Shown piece after piece: positions 28,913 through 50,152 of a DNA stretch of 64,000 nt. Positions within the stretch are counted from its first letter, which is position 1. The number at the start of each line of letters is the position of its first letter. The notes below the pieces were generated by a model. The model saw nothing but the letters and a program-made list of their open reading frames with translations. It searched no databases and had not been told where the DNA came from. Location: positions 2,115,089-2,179,088 of the forward strand of contig NZ_JAALDK010000001.1 of the NCBI RefSeq assembly GCF_013366925.1, in the 5' to 3' direction. Made by a program: the position numbers and the translations under genes. Source of the stretch: Paraburkholderia youngii. Its GTDB lineage: Bacteria; Pseudomonadota; Gammaproteobacteria; Burkholderiales; Burkholderiaceae.

Positions 28913-29545
28913 TTAGCGCGCCTTCCTGCGAGCGCCCTTGGCGGTCGTCGCGGCGCGCGGCGCTTCCTTCTCGACCGGTGCGCCGCCGTTCATCTGCTCG
29001 AGCCACGACAGCGTATCGACATACGACAGAAACTGCTTCAGATACCCCGGCGACAGCTCGCGCATCAACGACAGCGCACGATGCACGAGGCTGCTCGAAT
29101 TGAGCGGCCCCGCGTTGCCGGGTACCTGCGCGAGCGACTGGCGCAACTGCTTTTCGGTGCGGACTTTCGACCAGACTTCGCGGAAGTAGTCGAGCGCGGG
29201 GAGTTCGGGATAGGCGGCGGCGTGCGGAGCATCGGCCCGCGCGTGGTGGCGGGCAAGCCGTTCGATCAGCGCCGCGAGCGTGGCGTCGCTGGCCGCGTCG
29301 GTTTCAACGGGAGTGGCTTGCAACGCGCTCTCGGCCACGGCCGCACGCTCGACCTCGGCCGCATATTCGGCCAGTAATGCCGCCAATCGTTGCTCGATCA
29401 CCCGTCGCGTCTCGCCGCTGTGCCGCGCCGCGCGCCGCGCAAGCGCTTCGAGCAGATGAAAGCGCAGCGGATCGAGCCGATCCGCACCGCTCGCGCGCCA
29501 TGCATCGAGCGTCGCGCGAGCCGCGTCGATTGCGTCGTCAAGCAC
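28913..29545 (-). CDS. DUF2894-type protein, last gene of a motor-like operon
   Basis: A 210-residue soluble, Ala/Arg-rich helical protein. It ends with a conserved block (YFREVWSKVRTEKQLRQSLAQVPGNAGPLNSSSLVHRALSLM) and a basic tail (KGARRKAR). The GTG at 29545 overlaps the end of the OmpA/MotB-like gene by eight bases; the longer open frame upstream is an Arg-rich shadow. I place it in DUF2894 from its position and C-terminal block. Function is unknown. The coupling implies it works with the membrane motor encoded upstream, perhaps as a cytoplasmic partner of the long tail (inference). Confidence 0.82.
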   Translation of the reverse strand: MLDDAIDAARATLDAWRASGADRLDPLRFHLLEALARRAARHSGETRRVIEQRLAALLAEYAAEVERAAVAESALQATPVETDAASDATLAALIERLARHHARADAPHAAAYPELPALDYFREVWSKVRTEKQLRQSLAQVPGNAGPLNSSSLVHRALSLMRELSPGYLKQFLSYVDTLSWLEQMNGGAPVEKEAPRAATTAKGARRKAR

Positions 29546-30191
29546 CGGACTTCTCCGCCGTCGCCGCGCTCGACGGCCGCGGCACCGGCGCGATTTCGAC
29601 GCGGCGGTTTTTCGCGCGGCCGGATTCGTCGGCATTCGAACTGACCGGCTGCTCGGCGCCGAACGCCGCCGCAAACACCGACGACGCCGGCACGCCCTCG
29701 TCGATCAGCGTGCGCGTGACCGTCAACGCGCGCTGCGCTGACAGCTCCCAGTTATCGGCGAAGCGTCGATTGCCTTCGCGCAGGCGTTGATCGTCGGTGA
29801 AGCCGCTGACCATCAGGATCTGATCGCTCGCGCGCAGATACGCGGACAGCGGACCGGCGAGGCTCTTCAGCAGCGCGCGGCCCTCGGGCTGCAGCTGCGC
29901 GGAGTTCAGCGCGAACAGCACGTTGCCGCTAATGCCGATGCGGCCATTGACGAGCGTCACGCGCCCCGCCGCGAGCGGTCCCGCGAGCGCCTGCTCGAGC
30001 GTCTTGCGCCGCTGCGTTTCGGCCTGGCGCTGCTTGACCTCCTGCTCGAGCTTGTTCGATAGCACGAGCTGCATGCCGATCACGCTCACCAGAATCAGCA
30101 CGAACGCGCCGACCAGCACCGACATCAGATCGCCGAACGAGGCCCAGACCGGCGCGGCCGTTTCCACGCCGCCGTCGATGTCCTCGCTCAT
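29538..30191 (-). CDS. MotB/ZorB-like OmpA-family stator protein
   Basis: A 217-residue protein with one N-terminal membrane helix, W-A-S-F-G-D-L-M-S then VLVGAFVLILVSVIGMQLVL. D21 sits where MotB, ExbD and ZorB keep their proton-binding Asp. A short coiled coil follows, then an OmpA peptidoglycan-binding domain (VLFALNSAQLQPEGRALL, GFTDDQRLREGNRRFADNWELSAQRA, KNRRVEI). This is the anchor half of an ion-driven 5:2 motor. Its start overlaps the stop of the MotA-like DUF802 gene by ATGA. It is shorter than flagellar MotB and no flagellar genes are near. Confidence 0.88.
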   Translation of the reverse strand: MSEDIDGGVETAAPVWASFGDLMSVLVGAFVLILVSVIGMQLVLSNKLEQEVKQRQAETQRRKTLEQALAGPLAAGRVTLVNGRIGISGNVLFALNSAQLQPEGRALLKSLAGPLSAYLRASDQILMVSGFTDDQRLREGNRRFADNWELSAQRALTVTRTLIDEGVPASSVFAAAFGAEQPVSSNADESGRAKNRRVEIAPVPRPSSAATAEKSGA

Positions 30192-32806
30192 ACCGCGTCG
30201 GCTCCGGCGGTCGCGCGCTGCGCGGCCAGCAACTGCAGGTCTTCGACGATCTGCTTCTGCGACATCACGCTGAGATCGACCACATCGCGCGCCTGTGCGA
30301 CGTAGTAGGCGAGCTGTTCGTCGCTACGGGCAAGCGATTTGTCGAGCGCCGCTTCGATGCGTTCGAGATGCGCGACGAGCTTGTCGTTCGCTTCGCCGAA
30401 CATTCCGACGGCCGCGCCGAATGCTTCGCCGAGACTCGCGACTTCGGCCGCGCTGCCGGTGACCTGCGCGGCGACCGTGCCGAGCTTGCCGGTCTCGTGC
30501 TCGAGGTGCTCGGTGAAGCGATTGCCGACGCGTTCGAGCAGATCCGCCGACGTCGAGACCAAGGCATCGACGGCGCTGCGCTGTTCGGTCGACGCGTGAT
30601 TGACCGCGTCCAGCAGCGTCTCCAGCGTGGCGAGCAGACGGCTGCGCTCTTCCAGCATCGCGGTGTCGCGGACCATGCTGTCGGAGAGCTTCTGGCGCAG
30701 CTCCGCGACGACTTCGGCGGCGGCCTTCGGCGCTTCCGATGCCGCCTGCACGAGGCGCTCGATCTCGGCGATCGTCGCGCTGGCGTGGGTTTGCGTCTGC
30801 GCGGAGATATCGTGTGCGGTCTGCGCGAGCGCGTCGCAGATCTGCTGCTGACGGGTCGCCGTTTGCGAACCCGTCTGCTGCCATTGTTCGCTGAGCTTTG
30901 CGGTCATCGCACCGAGCGCTTCGGTCCATGCGGCGAAGCGCTGTTCGTCGCGCGCGGCGAGTTCGGCTTGCAGGTTTGCTGCGGCCTTCGGTGCTTCGGC
31001 CGCGGCCTGCACCAGTCGATCGATTTCGGCGATCGTCGCGCTCGCATGCGTTTGCGTCTGCGCGGAGATATCGCGTGCCGTTTGCGCGAGTGCGTCGCAG
31101 ATTTGCTGCTGATGGCTTGCAGCTTGCGAACCCGTTTGCTGCCATTGCTCGTTGAGTTTCGCCGTCATCGCACCGAGCGCTTCGGTCCACGCGGCGAAGC
31201 GCTGTTCGTCGCGCGCGGCGAGTTCGGCTTGCAAGTTTGCTGCGGCCTTCGGTGCTTCGGCCGCTGCTTGCACCAGTCGATCGATTTCGGCGATCGTCGC
31301 GCTGGCGTGCGTTTGCGTCTGCGCAGAAATTTCGCGCGCCGTCTGTGCAAGCGCGTCGCAAATTTGCTGCTGATGGCTGGCGGCTTGCGCACCCGTCTGC
31401 CGCCATTGCTCGCCGAGCTTCGCGCCCATCGCGTCGAGCGCCTCCGCCCATGCGCTCAAACGCTGCTCGTCGCGCGCAGTCAGCTCCGTCTGCAAGTTCG
31501 TATGCGAGCTACCGACAGCACTCAGCAACGCCGCGGCATGCTGTTCGAACGTCGCGGCGGCGCGCGCCAACGCCTGTTCGTTGTTGGCGGCGAGCTTGTC
31601 GCCCGCGCTTTGCTGCTTTGCCAACGCATCGCCCCACGCCTGCGAGATGCCGCTGGCCGTCGCTTCGAGCCGCGCGGACACGCCTTCGAGCAACGCGACC
31701 GAGCGCTGTTCGAACGCTTCGGCAACGCGTTCGACCGAAGCGCGCTGTTGCGCGGCCAACTCGTCGCTCGCCTGCCGATGTCCGGCGAGCGCGCTGCTGC
31801 AAATGTCGGCGAGGTTCGCGCTGGTCGCCGCGAAGCCGCTCGACATGCCGTCGAGCTGGCGCTGCACGGCCTGGGTCACCGCGTCGTGCAACGCGGCGGT
31901 TTCGCGCGAAAGGCCGGCCATCGTCGCTTCGACGACCGGCTGCAGGGCCCGGCCCGCAGCCTGGGCGCTGCCGGCCACGCTGTCTTTCAGCGACTGCTCG
32001 ATCACACCGGCCAGACGCAGATAAGCCGCTTCGGTGCGTCCGTAAAACGCGTCGAGACTCGCGATCTGCCGCTCGTTCGACGCGGCGCTCTGCTGTTCGA
32101 GCGCGCTCATCATCGTCTGCAGACGTTCGACCAGCAGCGGCGTCGCTTCGGCCTGGCGTTGCAGCAGCCGGAAGCTTTCGTCGCGCTGATGGCTCTGCGA
32201 GTACACGCGCAAAGTCGTCGCGATCTTCACGTCGAGCTGTTGCGCCGCTTCGAGCCGCTCGCGGCGGCATAGCGCCGACAGCAGCCCGAGCATCGCCGAC
32301 GTCGCGACACCCGCGATCGAGGTGCCGAACGCAAAGCTCAGCCCCTTGACCGGCGCCGCCAGCGATGCGCGGATCGCCTGCAGGTCGCTTGCGCTCTCCA
32401 GCGCGAGGCCGGTGCCGCGCAGCGTCATCACCATGCCGAGCAGCGTGCCGAGCATGCCGAGCAACACCAGCAGGCCGACCAGATACGGCGTCAACGCGGG
32501 TCCCGGCAACGCGACGCGCTCGCCTTCGACGCGCAGCCGCACGCTATTGCGCAGACTCGGATGGACGGGTTCGAGAAACGCGGCAAGGCTCGGCGGTGGT
32601 CCGGACAGCGCAGCAAGCGCGCCCGTCAGCGTAGCGGTCGCCTGACTATAGCGGCGCAATTCGAGCGCGCCCAGCACATAGAAGACGCCGATCAGCAGCG
32701 TGACGGCGAACGCGAGCGCATTGGAGACGGCGTAACCGACGGCGATCCAGCACGCCGCGGCGAGCCCCGCGAGAAATACAACGAGATCGATACGATATCT
32801 GGACAT
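30188..32806 (-). CDS. DUF802 protein: MotA/ZorA/ExbB-like core with giant coiled-coil tail
   Basis: The 872 residues have four membrane helices in the first 180. TM3 is GLLVLLGMLGTLLGMVMTL (111-129) and TM4 is GLSFAFGTSIAGVATSAMLG (155-174), which is the MotA/TolQ/ExbB proton-channel pattern. Residues 190-870 are a long Ala/Gln/Glu-rich predicted coiled coil reaching into the cytoplasm, including three near-identical 87-residue repeats (438-698). The DUF802 assignment is from family memory. Gene order and topology resemble ZorA of Zorya defence, but no helicase or nuclease gene follows. It is coupled to the MotB-like gene by ATGA and lies 10 bases after the DUF3348 gene. Confidence 0.85.
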   Translation of the reverse strand: MSRYRIDLVVFLAGLAAACWIAVGYAVSNALAFAVTLLIGVFYVLGALELRRYSQATATLTGALAALSGPPPSLAAFLEPVHPSLRNSVRLRVEGERVALPGPALTPYLVGLLVLLGMLGTLLGMVMTLRGTGLALESASDLQAIRASLAAPVKGLSFAFGTSIAGVATSAMLGLLSALCRRERLEAAQQLDVKIATTLRVYSQSHQRDESFRLLQRQAEATPLLVERLQTMMSALEQQSAASNERQIASLDAFYGRTEAAYLRLAGVIEQSLKDSVAGSAQAAGRALQPVVEATMAGLSRETAALHDAVTQAVQRQLDGMSSGFAATSANLADICSSALAGHRQASDELAAQQRASVERVAEAFEQRSVALLEGVSARLEATASGISQAWGDALAKQQSAGDKLAANNEQALARAAATFEQHAAALLSAVGSSHTNLQTELTARDEQRLSAWAEALDAMGAKLGEQWRQTGAQAASHQQQICDALAQTAREISAQTQTHASATIAEIDRLVQAAAEAPKAAANLQAELAARDEQRFAAWTEALGAMTAKLNEQWQQTGSQAASHQQQICDALAQTARDISAQTQTHASATIAEIDRLVQAAAEAPKAAANLQAELAARDEQRFAAWTEALGAMTAKLSEQWQQTGSQTATRQQQICDALAQTAHDISAQTQTHASATIAEIERLVQAASEAPKAAAEVVAELRQKLSDSMVRDTAMLEERSRLLATLETLLDAVNHASTEQRSAVDALVSTSADLLERVGNRFTEHLEHETGKLGTVAAQVTGSAAEVASLGEAFGAAVGMFGEANDKLVAHLERIEAALDKSLARSDEQLAYYVAQARDVVDLSVMSQKQIVEDLQLLAAQRATAGADAV
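30713..31495 (-). repeat. Three tandem 261-bp repeats inside the DUF802 gene
   Basis: Copies are 31495-31235, 31234-30974 and 30973-30713 in coding order. Each encodes 87 residues starting L-Q-x-E-L-x-A-R-D-E-Q-R and ending AAAEAPKAAAN or similar. The second and third copies are nearly identical in DNA as well, so copy number could change by recombination without a frameshift. Confidence 0.9.
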
Positions 32807-32816
32807 GGGGTCCCAG

Positions 32817-33584
32817 TTAGCAGGCGCGAAGAGCCGCGAGCAGCCCTTCGACCGGTTGAAAACGAACGTCCAGCTCGGCCAGCAAAACGCTTTGCATGTC
32901 CTTGCCGAAGGCGTCGAGCCATGCGTCGGACGCGAGCGGCGCGGCAGCGTTGCTGGCGTCGGTCGCTTCCGCCTCCGCGACCCTCCGGGCCTCCCCCTCT
33001 TTCAAGCGCTCGAAGTGCCCGCCGAGCAGGCCGGGCACCGCGCCGAGCAAAGTCCGCTCGCGCTCGCCGAGCGCACGCTCCATCACCGCATCGACGACCG
33101 CGAGCCGCGCAAGCGCCGGCGCTTGCGTCGCCAGCAGCGCGCGCAGCCGCCCGCGTAACGTGCCGATCGCAGTTTCCATCGACTGCTGGAGCGCGAGATA
33201 GCGCTGCCTGAAGACCGCATAGTCGGTCTGCGTGTCGACGACGGCCACGCGCGGTGCCGACATCCGGGCAGACAAAGACGACGAGCCACGCCGCCGTGAG
33301 CCCGCGAGCACACTATCGCTGGCGATTGCGCTCACCAGCGAGCGGCGCACACGCGTGCACTCTTCCTCTTCCGCGCGACCGAACGCGCGCGCGCCACCAG
33401 CGACGGCGGGCGGCTTGCCGTCGAGCGCCGATGACAACGCGATAGCGTCGGTCCAGCCGAGCCACTGGCTCAGCCGATCCGCCAGCGATTGGCGCGATTC
33501 GGCGACGTCGGCCTCGACGAGACGGGCCAGTAAGCGAACGAGCGCGGGGCCGCTGAGGGCGCTGCGCTGAGGGGCTTGCAACAT
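32817..33584 (-). CDS. DUF3348-type protein, first gene of the motor-like operon
   Basis: A 255-residue soluble protein, mostly helical, with an N-terminal block SGPALVRLLARLVEADVAESRQSLADRLSQWLGWTDAIALSSAL and a central stretch VDTQTDYAVFRQRYLALQQSMETAIGTLRGRLRALLA. No catalytic motif is evident. It opens the operon DUF3348, DUF802, OmpA/MotB, DUF2894, ten bases before DUF802. The family name comes from its conserved company in Burkholderia. A cytoplasmic regulator or tail-binding partner of the motor is possible, but function is unknown. Confidence 0.82.
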   Translation of the reverse strand: MLQAPQRSALSGPALVRLLARLVEADVAESRQSLADRLSQWLGWTDAIALSSALDGKPPAVAGGARAFGRAEEEECTRVRRSLVSAIASDSVLAGSRRRGSSSLSARMSAPRVAVVDTQTDYAVFRQRYLALQQSMETAIGTLRGRLRALLATQAPALARLAVVDAVMERALGERERTLLGAVPGLLGGHFERLKEGEARRVAEAEATDASNAAAPLASDAWLDAFGKDMQSVLLAELDVRFQPVEGLLAALRAC

Positions 33585-48877: not shown

Positions 48878-50152
48878 TCAAAGCTGCGTGTCCAGCAGCC
48901 GTACGAACTTTTCGACGACCTTCTCGGTAAACGAACGTCGCGTCCATGCTTCGAGCGTGATGCGCTTCGACTTCGCGATGTCGTCGTTGAACGCGGCGGT
49001 CTGCTGTCTGGCGAAAGCGCGGTCGTAGATATTCAGGTTTGCTTCGTCGTTCAGCTTGAACGAGCGGTTATCGAAGTTCGTCGAGCCGACCGACACCAGG
49101 TACTCGTCGACCACCAGCAACTTGCAATGGAACATGGTCGGCTGGTACTCGTAGATCTCGACGCCCGCTTTCAATAGATCGCCCCAGCATGCCCGCGACG
49201 CTTCTCGCACCGTGTGCGTATCGATGCGTTTGCCCGGCGTGACGATCTGTACTTTGACGCCGCGTTTCGCGGCTTCAACGATCGCGTTGATGGTGAGCTT
49301 GTCGGGCACGAAATACGCGCTCGCAAGCTGCAAACTGCGCGTCGCGGCAGTGATGGCCATCAGATACATCAGTTGCATGTCGTCGCTGCCGCCCGACGGC
49401 GAACTGCTGAACATATTCGCAAAACCCTCGCCCTCTCCTTTCGGCTCGGCGTCGATGTGCGGGAAATACCTGGGACCGTGCAAGACGTTGCCGGTCGCCT
49501 TGATCCAGTTATCCATGAAGACGGCCTGCATATGGGCGACCGCCGGACCGGTCAAGCGGAAATGCGTATCGCGCCAATGCTTTTCGTCCTGCGCATGGCC
49601 GGTCCACTCCGGTGCAATGCCGACCCCGCCCGTAAAACCGATCCGGCCGTCGATCACCAATAGTTTCCGGTGCGTACGATCGTTCATGCGACCGAGTCCG
49701 GTCCAATGCGGTTTGTGAAACTTGACCACTTCGGCGCCGGCCTCGCGCAGCAGTTGCAGATAGCGCCGATCCATTTTCGAACAACCGACCCAATCGAGCA
49801 GGACATGCACGGCGATGCCTTCACGCGCCTTATCGGCAAGCGCACGCGCAATCTGCTCGCCGATCTCGCCAGACCAGTAAATGAACGTTTCAAATGTGAT
49901 GGTTTCGCGCGCCGACCGAATGCCTTCGAGCATCGACGGAAAGATCTGGTCGCCGTTGAGCAGCATCTCGAAGCGATTACCCGGCACCACGGGCGGACCG
50001 AGCAATAGACCCATCGAGCGGAGGAATTGCGGATCTTCGCTCTTATAGAGCCGCTCGATCTTATGTTCTATTTTCTTCTCGCCGCTCGACAGATTGGCGA
50101 TCACGAGAACGATCACCAGCGTGACGAACGCGGTAATAGCAATGGTCAGCAT
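48878..50152 (-). CDS. Cardiolipin synthase / phospholipase D-type phosphatidyltransferase
   Basis: A 424-residue membrane-associated enzyme. The N-terminal helix is LTIAITAFVTLVIVLVIANL, and two HKD motifs are present: H161-x-K163-x4-D168 (HRKLLVID) and H342-x-K344-x4-D349 (HCKLLVVD). FTGGVGIAPEW and VGSTNFDNRS follow each motif as expected for cardiolipin synthases. It joins phosphatidyl groups to phosphatidylglycerol or a similar acceptor. The ATG at 50152 begins the membrane helix with gagg upstream; a start ten codons earlier is less likely. Confidence 0.9.
   Translation of the reverse strand: MLTIAITAFVTLVIVLVIANLSSGEKKIEHKIERLYKSEDPQFLRSMGLLLGPPVVPGNRFEMLLNGDQIFPSMLEGIRSARETITFETFIYWSGEIGEQIARALADKAREGIAVHVLLDWVGCSKMDRRYLQLLREAGAEVVKFHKPHWTGLGRMNDRTHRKLLVIDGRIGFTGGVGIAPEWTGHAQDEKHWRDTHFRLTGPAVAHMQAVFMDNWIKATGNVLHGPRYFPHIDAEPKGEGEGFANMFSSSPSGGSDDMQLMYLMAITAATRSLQLASAYFVPDKLTINAIVEAAKRGVKVQIVTPGKRIDTHTVREASRACWGDLLKAGVEIYEYQPTMFHCKLLVVDEYLVSVGSTNFDNRSFKLNDEANLNIYDRAFARQQTAAFNDDIAKSKRITLEAWTRRSFTEKVVEKFVRLLDTQL

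Follow-up and report, generated by a model that had tools for sequence, protein, structure and literature searches.

A Zorya type III operon of Paraburkholderia youngii with a ZorA rod of modular, apparently phase-keeping length

The stretch of DNA analysed here, called the window in the following, comprises 64,000 nucleotides of the Paraburkholderia youngii genome and carries, on its minus strand at positions 28913–33584, an operon of four genes, which encode, in this order, a DUF3348 protein, ZorA (DUF802), ZorB (OmpA) and a DUF2894 protein. Judged by its profile matches, the operon is a complete Zorya type III, a known system, and its products probably form an ion-driven motor of the inner membrane that senses the wall injury caused by phage, drives or reshapes the rod of ZorA and engages the pair of DUF proteins. 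Two of its characteristics are apparently new: the tail of ZorA varies in length by modules, and the operon is near-core in its genus with mostly vertical inheritance. We found no description of either in the open-access literature, the subscription papers being outside this coverage.

The operon and its membrane motor

The DUF3348 gene (32817–33584) encodes 255 residues and matches PF11828 with 312 bits and the PADLOC profile PDLC00656 with 350 bits. After a gap of 10 bases, it is followed by zorA (30188–32806; 872 residues; PF05650, 83.6 bits; PADLOC ZorA3, 1543 bits), which overlaps by 4 bases with zorB (29538–30191; 217 residues; PF00691, 68.6 bits; PADLOC ZorB3, 390.6 bits), and this in turn overlaps by 8 bases with the DUF2894 gene (28913–29545; 210 residues from a GTG start). 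The scores of the last protein, 215.9 bits for PF11445 and 278 bits for PADLOC PDLC00652, were computed on a reading frame of 253 residues; this longer version, which has a TTG start and overlaps zorB, is less likely than the shorter one. All four genes lie on the minus strand, and for all four proteins the best PADLOC profiles are those of type III. The margins are wide (1543 bits for ZorA3 versus 46 for ZorA1, and 391 for ZorB3 versus 67 for ZorB1), and profile scores of this kind exclude a chance match.

A first-pass annotation had proposed a four-gene operon at this place, coupled by overlaps or a 10-base gap, whose membrane proteins resemble ZorA and ZorB of Zorya; coordinates, common strand, Pfam and PADLOC matches and the comparison with a ZorA structure described below bear this out. 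Its view of an unnamed Zorya-like system with DUF3348 and DUF2894 as novel effectors has to be given up, since the system was named Zorya type III in 2021. An operon from Stenotrophomonas nitritireducens protects E. coli and reduces the plaquing of phages (Payne et al., PMC8565338), and the definition of the type is restated by Mariano et al. (2025; PMC11890865). The names of the two DUF proteins are swapped between sources: the text of Payne et al. (2021) and Mariano et al. use ZorF for DUF3348 and ZorG for DUF2894, PADLOC-DB v2 uses ZorG3 for DUF3348 and ZorF3 for DUF2894.

ZorA has four predicted transmembrane (TM) helices (residues 6–24, 30–48, 109–127 and 158–176), with the motif GMLGTLLGM in TM3 and AFGTSIAGVATS in TM4, and a tail of about 696 residues beyond them, in keeping with the MotA/ExbB-type core and long tail described earlier. 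A profile of residues 1–260 matches the type I ZorA structure 8VVN_C with an E-value of 9.6e-5, an aquaporin at 0.64 being the sole further match among the matches listed. The MotA_ExbB family PF01618 finds eight places in the whole genome, seven above its curated cut-off and one below, none of them at the operon; as it misses zorA in its own genome, ZorA is a distant relative of MotA. Within this core, T121 in TM3 and T162 in TM4 (32321–32446, minus strand) are invariant in 13 of 13 aligned proteins and, counted by hand on the printed alignment, coincide with T158 and T197 of 8VVN_C. Mariano et al. describe rings of serine and threonine that surround the aspartate of ZorB (PMC11890865), and the two threonines are candidate ring residues of the ion path. 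ZorA residues 1–300 are 99% identical to those of records named Paraburkholderia youngii.

The partner protein ZorB has a single predicted TM helix (residues 22–40), immediately preceded by D21, which is invariant in nine of nine aligned proteins, and an OmpA domain at residues 92–196, so that the earlier description of a ZorB-like protein with a membrane aspartate and an OmpA domain is sound. Its structure matches are MotB and related OmpA-domain structures, and the domain may well bind peptidoglycan.

Of the two remaining proteins, DUF3348 is predicted to be all-helical, a set of long helices (mean pLDDT of the model 77.8), and its model has no Foldseek match with E ≤ 0.001. The DUF2894 model is trustworthy for the first 75 or so residues only. 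Neither protein matched a nuclease family or a known fold in Pfam, other profile and structure searches. The absence of ZorC, ZorD and ZorE from the operon had been pointed out before, and no PADLOC model of ZorC or ZorD (type I) or of the HNH nickase ZorE (type II) matched the operon or the 30 scanned genes among the 40 others called in the window.

A rod of modular length

Beyond TM4, the tail is built of distinct parts. The proximal rod holds two DUF802 repeats (31523–31843, minus strand; PF05650 matches at G000:C1:2146611–2146769 and 2146776–2146931, converted to window positions), followed by a 261-bp tandem repeat in 2.9 copies (30720–31477, minus strand; 86% matches and 0% indels in TRF), which encodes three 87-residue modules at ZorA residues 446–706, approximately, with unit spacings of 87 and 87. 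Next comes a distal stalk block (residues ~685–757; 30536–30754, minus strand) and finally a C-terminal cap with the motif DEQLAYYVAQAR (residues ~812–857; 30236–30373, minus strand). In 25 distinct tails of base length, mean column conservation is 0.82–0.84 in the distal block versus 0.52–0.65 in the variable rod, and it reaches 0.87 in the cap. Conservation is thus high at TM4, in the distal block and in the cap, and lower in the rod between; such a pattern would suit a cap that serves as a docking tip.

Rod length was taken as the distance between the AFGTS motif of TM4 and the near-C-terminal motif DEQLAYY in 92 loci, the window included; three loci with a broken ZorA frame (L032, L087, L092), one without the motif (L216) and one without an anchor (L210) were left out. 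The rod is exactly 496 residues long in 27 loci, which span the host family and a second family, f15. The other 65 exceed this length, and in 55 of them the excess is exactly a whole number of copies of a repeat that the same protein contains, with units of 29, 33, 40, 51, 62, 80, 87 (1–4 extra copies) and 113 residues. Ten loci are not exact multiples, with differences of 11 or 22 residues (six loci), 58, 69, 402 (3×76 + 2×87) and 4 (one locus). Five pairs of loci represent an identical sequence fetched twice (L027/L117, L030/L109, L039/L084, L042/L119 and L043/L105); without these duplicates, 25 of 87 loci have the base length, and 54 of the 62 longer ones are exact multiples. Likewise, a list of 120 homologues, which partly come from genomes that also supplied loci, contains 119 proteins with the motif, and in 108 of these the tail to the C-terminus measures 540 + 87k residues (17, 41, 42 and 8 proteins at k = 0 to 3). 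Intact ZorA3 tails span 534–993 residues from the AFGTS motif, and the length varies even within named species, with records of 872 and 785 residues for P. youngii and of 784 and 871 for P. sediminicola.

Modules of one and the same protein have a higher median identity (0.80, n = 125) than modules in equivalent positions of different proteins (0.63, n = 3,793; a comparison that mixes near and far relatives), a sign of repeated local duplication as far as the sequences tell. On trees of 38–39 species, rod length requires 23 changes, a value equal to the minimum of 1,000 shuffles (mean 27), and unit type requires 13–14 versus 17–18 at the lowest shuffle. Therefore, the type of unit tracks the lineage, and length turns over fast. 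We consider it very unlikely that the length classes are mere noise of assembly or recombination without function. Short-read assembly can merge repeats that are nearly identical, and the ZorA frame is broken in three of 76 loci, which may reflect decay or an assembly error in the repeat; yet the exact sizes recur in many genomes, long contigs included, with diverged repeats, and two families have exactly the same base length.

Are the modules whole numbers of helical turns? Tails have a hydrophobic period of 3.665 where they carry no insert (19 tails) and of 3.64 where they carry repeats (48 tails), and the free spectral peak of the repeat arrays lies at 3.62–3.655, near 29/8, 51/14, 76/21, 87/24 and 113/31. 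We do not regard these integer harmonics as independent proof, because a periodic array peaks only on its own harmonics; they are only consistent with whole turns. A second test, which carries the weight, used eight unit lengths (29, 33, 40, 51, 62, 76, 87 and 113), each the shortest strong self-match of its lineage, as chosen by the analyst, and omitted 80 as possibly 2×40. Their best common period is 3.635 with a mean cosine of 0.925, which 9 of 100,000 random sets equal when the period is left free between 3.5 and 3.7. Per 100,000, the random sets as good number 26 without 87, 59 without 29 and 6 without both 76 and 87; they number 0 when the steps of 11 and 22 are added, and 1 when the period is fixed at 3.64, a value partly derived from the repeats.

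A tail that may lengthen mostly in phase between conserved ends would fit a continuous helical bundle from membrane to tip without a break of register, and the sequences suggest an in-register shaft in which length is free and phase is not. This bears on another explanation, in which ZorAB acts as an abortive ion channel: ions leak through ZorAB, the DUF proteins only gate this leak, and the rod is a regulatory spacer rather than a drive shaft. The failure of either DUF protein to match a nuclease family or fold would fit such a channel, but a spacer need not keep helical phase over eight unit lengths, nor does it need a highly conserved distal cap, and we therefore think this explanation improbable.

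Distribution and inheritance

In a survey of the genus with one genome per species (97 genomes), DUF3348 was found in 90 genomes and DUF2894 in the same 90 (lists compared by eye), each in one copy with few exceptions. The genomes without both are G003, G034, G049, G061, G070, G075 and G079. rpoB is matched in 92 genomes, and G061 and G070 have no rpoB match either, so that assembly gaps may explain their lack of the DUF genes. As the other five species do yield rpoB, the operon is not essential. The only patchy defence gene used for comparison, the type I restriction domain HSDR_N, occurs in 43 of the 97 genomes. In the sister genus g283, DUF2894 is present in 63 of 65 genomes. The host family has DUF3348 in 207 of 299 genomes (11 of 25 genera), family f15 in 70 of 198 (18 of 54 genera), and at class level the operon was found in eight of 369, its own genome included. 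From these counts, Zorya III is rare at large and near fixation in some genera.

The four genes also stay together, as their conservation in the same genomes, an idea of the first-pass annotation, already indicates. Their order and common strand, determined by script, are kept in 76 of 76 loci and in a further 20 of 20, thus in all 96 loci, which were chosen by their DUF3348 and include, among the 76, the five duplicate pairs named above. The tree of the concatenated Zor proteins has 17 of 35 splits in common with that of rpoBC, compared with at most three in 500 label shuffles; it rests on 38 shared taxa, as the Zor tree was made without G008 and G013, and the contig of G010 lacks a full rpoC. 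The single-gene trees of rpoB and rpoC have 23 and 24 splits in common with the rpoBC tree, a generous yardstick, since both are parts of this reference. Half of the Zor splits thus differ from the rpoBC tree, and seven conflicting ones are well supported, versus six for rpoB alone and five for rpoC alone. The Mantel correlation between Zor and rpoBC is 0.68, reached in none of 999 permutations. We conclude that the operon is near-core in the genus and has been inherited mostly vertically.

Its place in the genome is less constant. According to a script-based comparison, 31 of 76 loci have the window neighbours on both sides, 11 share a second common neighbourhood (L036, L037, L039, L081, L084, L098, L099, L169, L170, L173 and L179), and 34 lie elsewhere, so the cassette changes place. 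Among the 30 operon-carrying genomes with at most nine contigs, operon and rpoB are on separate contigs in 24 (tables read by eye), which suggests a secondary-chromosome location in those 24; in the window's own genome, the two share a contig.

The nearest window neighbours include a porin, a LysR regulator, TerC, an FAD oxidoreductase and a TonB-dependent receptor, and the ten nearest ones submitted to Pfam belong to metabolism, transport or regulation. No defence neighbour stood out among the 30 scanned genes, as four PADLOC matches were judged to be generic domains. DUF3348 had no match in 50,697 phage records, and ZorB had none in viral contigs, in a search sensitive to close relatives only. 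Defence neighbours among the scanned genes and patchy presence in the genus, the marks of a mobile defence island, are both lacking here. Further along the window, a PLD-like protein (48878–50152) has weak matches to DrmC (DISARM) profiles; it is perhaps an ordinary cardiolipin-synthase-like enzyme.

This distribution, closer to that of a housekeeping machine than to that of a mobile defence island, keeps alive the envelope-force system suggested by the first-pass annotation. The operon of Burkholderiaceae could mainly be a housekeeping motor of the envelope, whose native task is to sense wall or envelope stress or to transfer force. Phage protection in E. coli would then be a side effect of overexpression or just one facet of envelope sensing. 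We take this reading seriously, though we hold it to be less probable than a defence motor. It draws on the presence in 90 of 97 species and in 63 of 65 sister-genus genomes, mostly in single copy, on the splits in common with rpoBC, on the nearest neighbours and on the absence from phage records. It is opposed by direct anti-phage assays of a type III operon (PMC8565338), by the five rpoB-yielding species that do without the operon, and by its patchiness above the genus. A bolder form, which we offer as speculation with somewhat poorer prospects still, would make Zorya III an old motor of the envelope that Burkholderiaceae and some related groups have passed on vertically. Torque or strain would travel along an unbroken, in-phase ZorA shaft to a conserved tip that works DUF3348 and DUF2894; the shaft could lengthen freely in evolution, but by whole turns only, as if geared, and phage defence would be one of several uses of a machine for sensing the wall.

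Proposed mechanism and relation to known systems

For the defence motor that we favour, we propose the following scheme. The OmpA domain of ZorB would bind peptidoglycan displaced by phage entry, and ions could pass D21 and the threonines of ZorA. The ZorA rod, as an unbroken multi-helix bundle, would carry motion or strain to the conserved cap at its tip, where DUF3348, DUF2894 or both may dock and be gathered or switched on. Under the module rule, the phase of the bundle between membrane and tip would have to be kept, while the spanned distance would be free to change.

Parts of this scheme have precedents in types I and II, for which PMC11890865 reports that rod, ion path and peptidoglycan binding are required for defence. 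There, ZorA and ZorB form a 5:2 complex with a pentameric rod, and the tail is essential; in type II, the part of the rod near the base was modelled with five helices in a bundle. In the model proposed there, ZorA rotates, the rod is thereby spun or rearranged, and nucleases are recruited; in type III, the DUF pair would take the place of these nucleases.

Several observations count against our proposal. Phage protection is known for the S. nitritireducens operon only (PMC8565338), and the defence role of the window copy is a prediction. In B. cenocepacia K56-2 infected with phage Bcep176, CRISPRi knock-down of predicted defence genes, Zorya III included, led to no change in fitness, although the expression of its Zorya I and its Zorya III shifted in the first gene or the first two genes of each (PMC12584637). 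A near-core, vertical distribution is unusual for a defence system, and a DUF pair that matches no nuclease family sits badly with the model of PMC11890865, which expects a recruited nuclease. The whole-turn result weakens when the period is fixed at 3.665, the sole independent value, taken from the tails without insert: 1,101 of 100,000 random sets are then as good. Moreover, the 402-residue insert corresponds to 110.6 turns at 3.635, and the rod of L215 (G532), which departs most clearly from the module rule, is off the base length by 4 residues. Finally, the keeping of register is by itself no proof of rotation, because any continuous coiled coil keeps register.

How a signal travels from the membrane motor along the long rod is an open question for Zorya at large. 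Type III amounts to a natural experiment on it, with dozens of rods that differ in length, apparently in phase, between two conserved ends, and E. coli could serve to test directly whether 'distance' or 'phase' matters. That a system filed as anti-phage immunity is near-core and vertically inherited in turn raises the question of a native envelope role.

Among known systems, Zorya III of S. nitritireducens is the closest, with the same four families in one operon as in the window. Zorya I and II (8VVN, 8VVI) share the ZorAB core, the membrane aspartate, the OmpA domain and the long cytoplasmic rod, and TM3–TM4 can be aligned to 8VVN; by contrast, the window system is without ZorC/D or ZorE in our scans. 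Furthermore, component sizes in types I and II are well conserved within families (PMC11890865), whereas ZorA3 tails range over hundreds of residues. With the MotAB and PomAB stators, the system has in common the MotB-type OmpA domain and the membrane aspartate of ZorB, but unlike in these stators, its ZorA is not found by PF01618.
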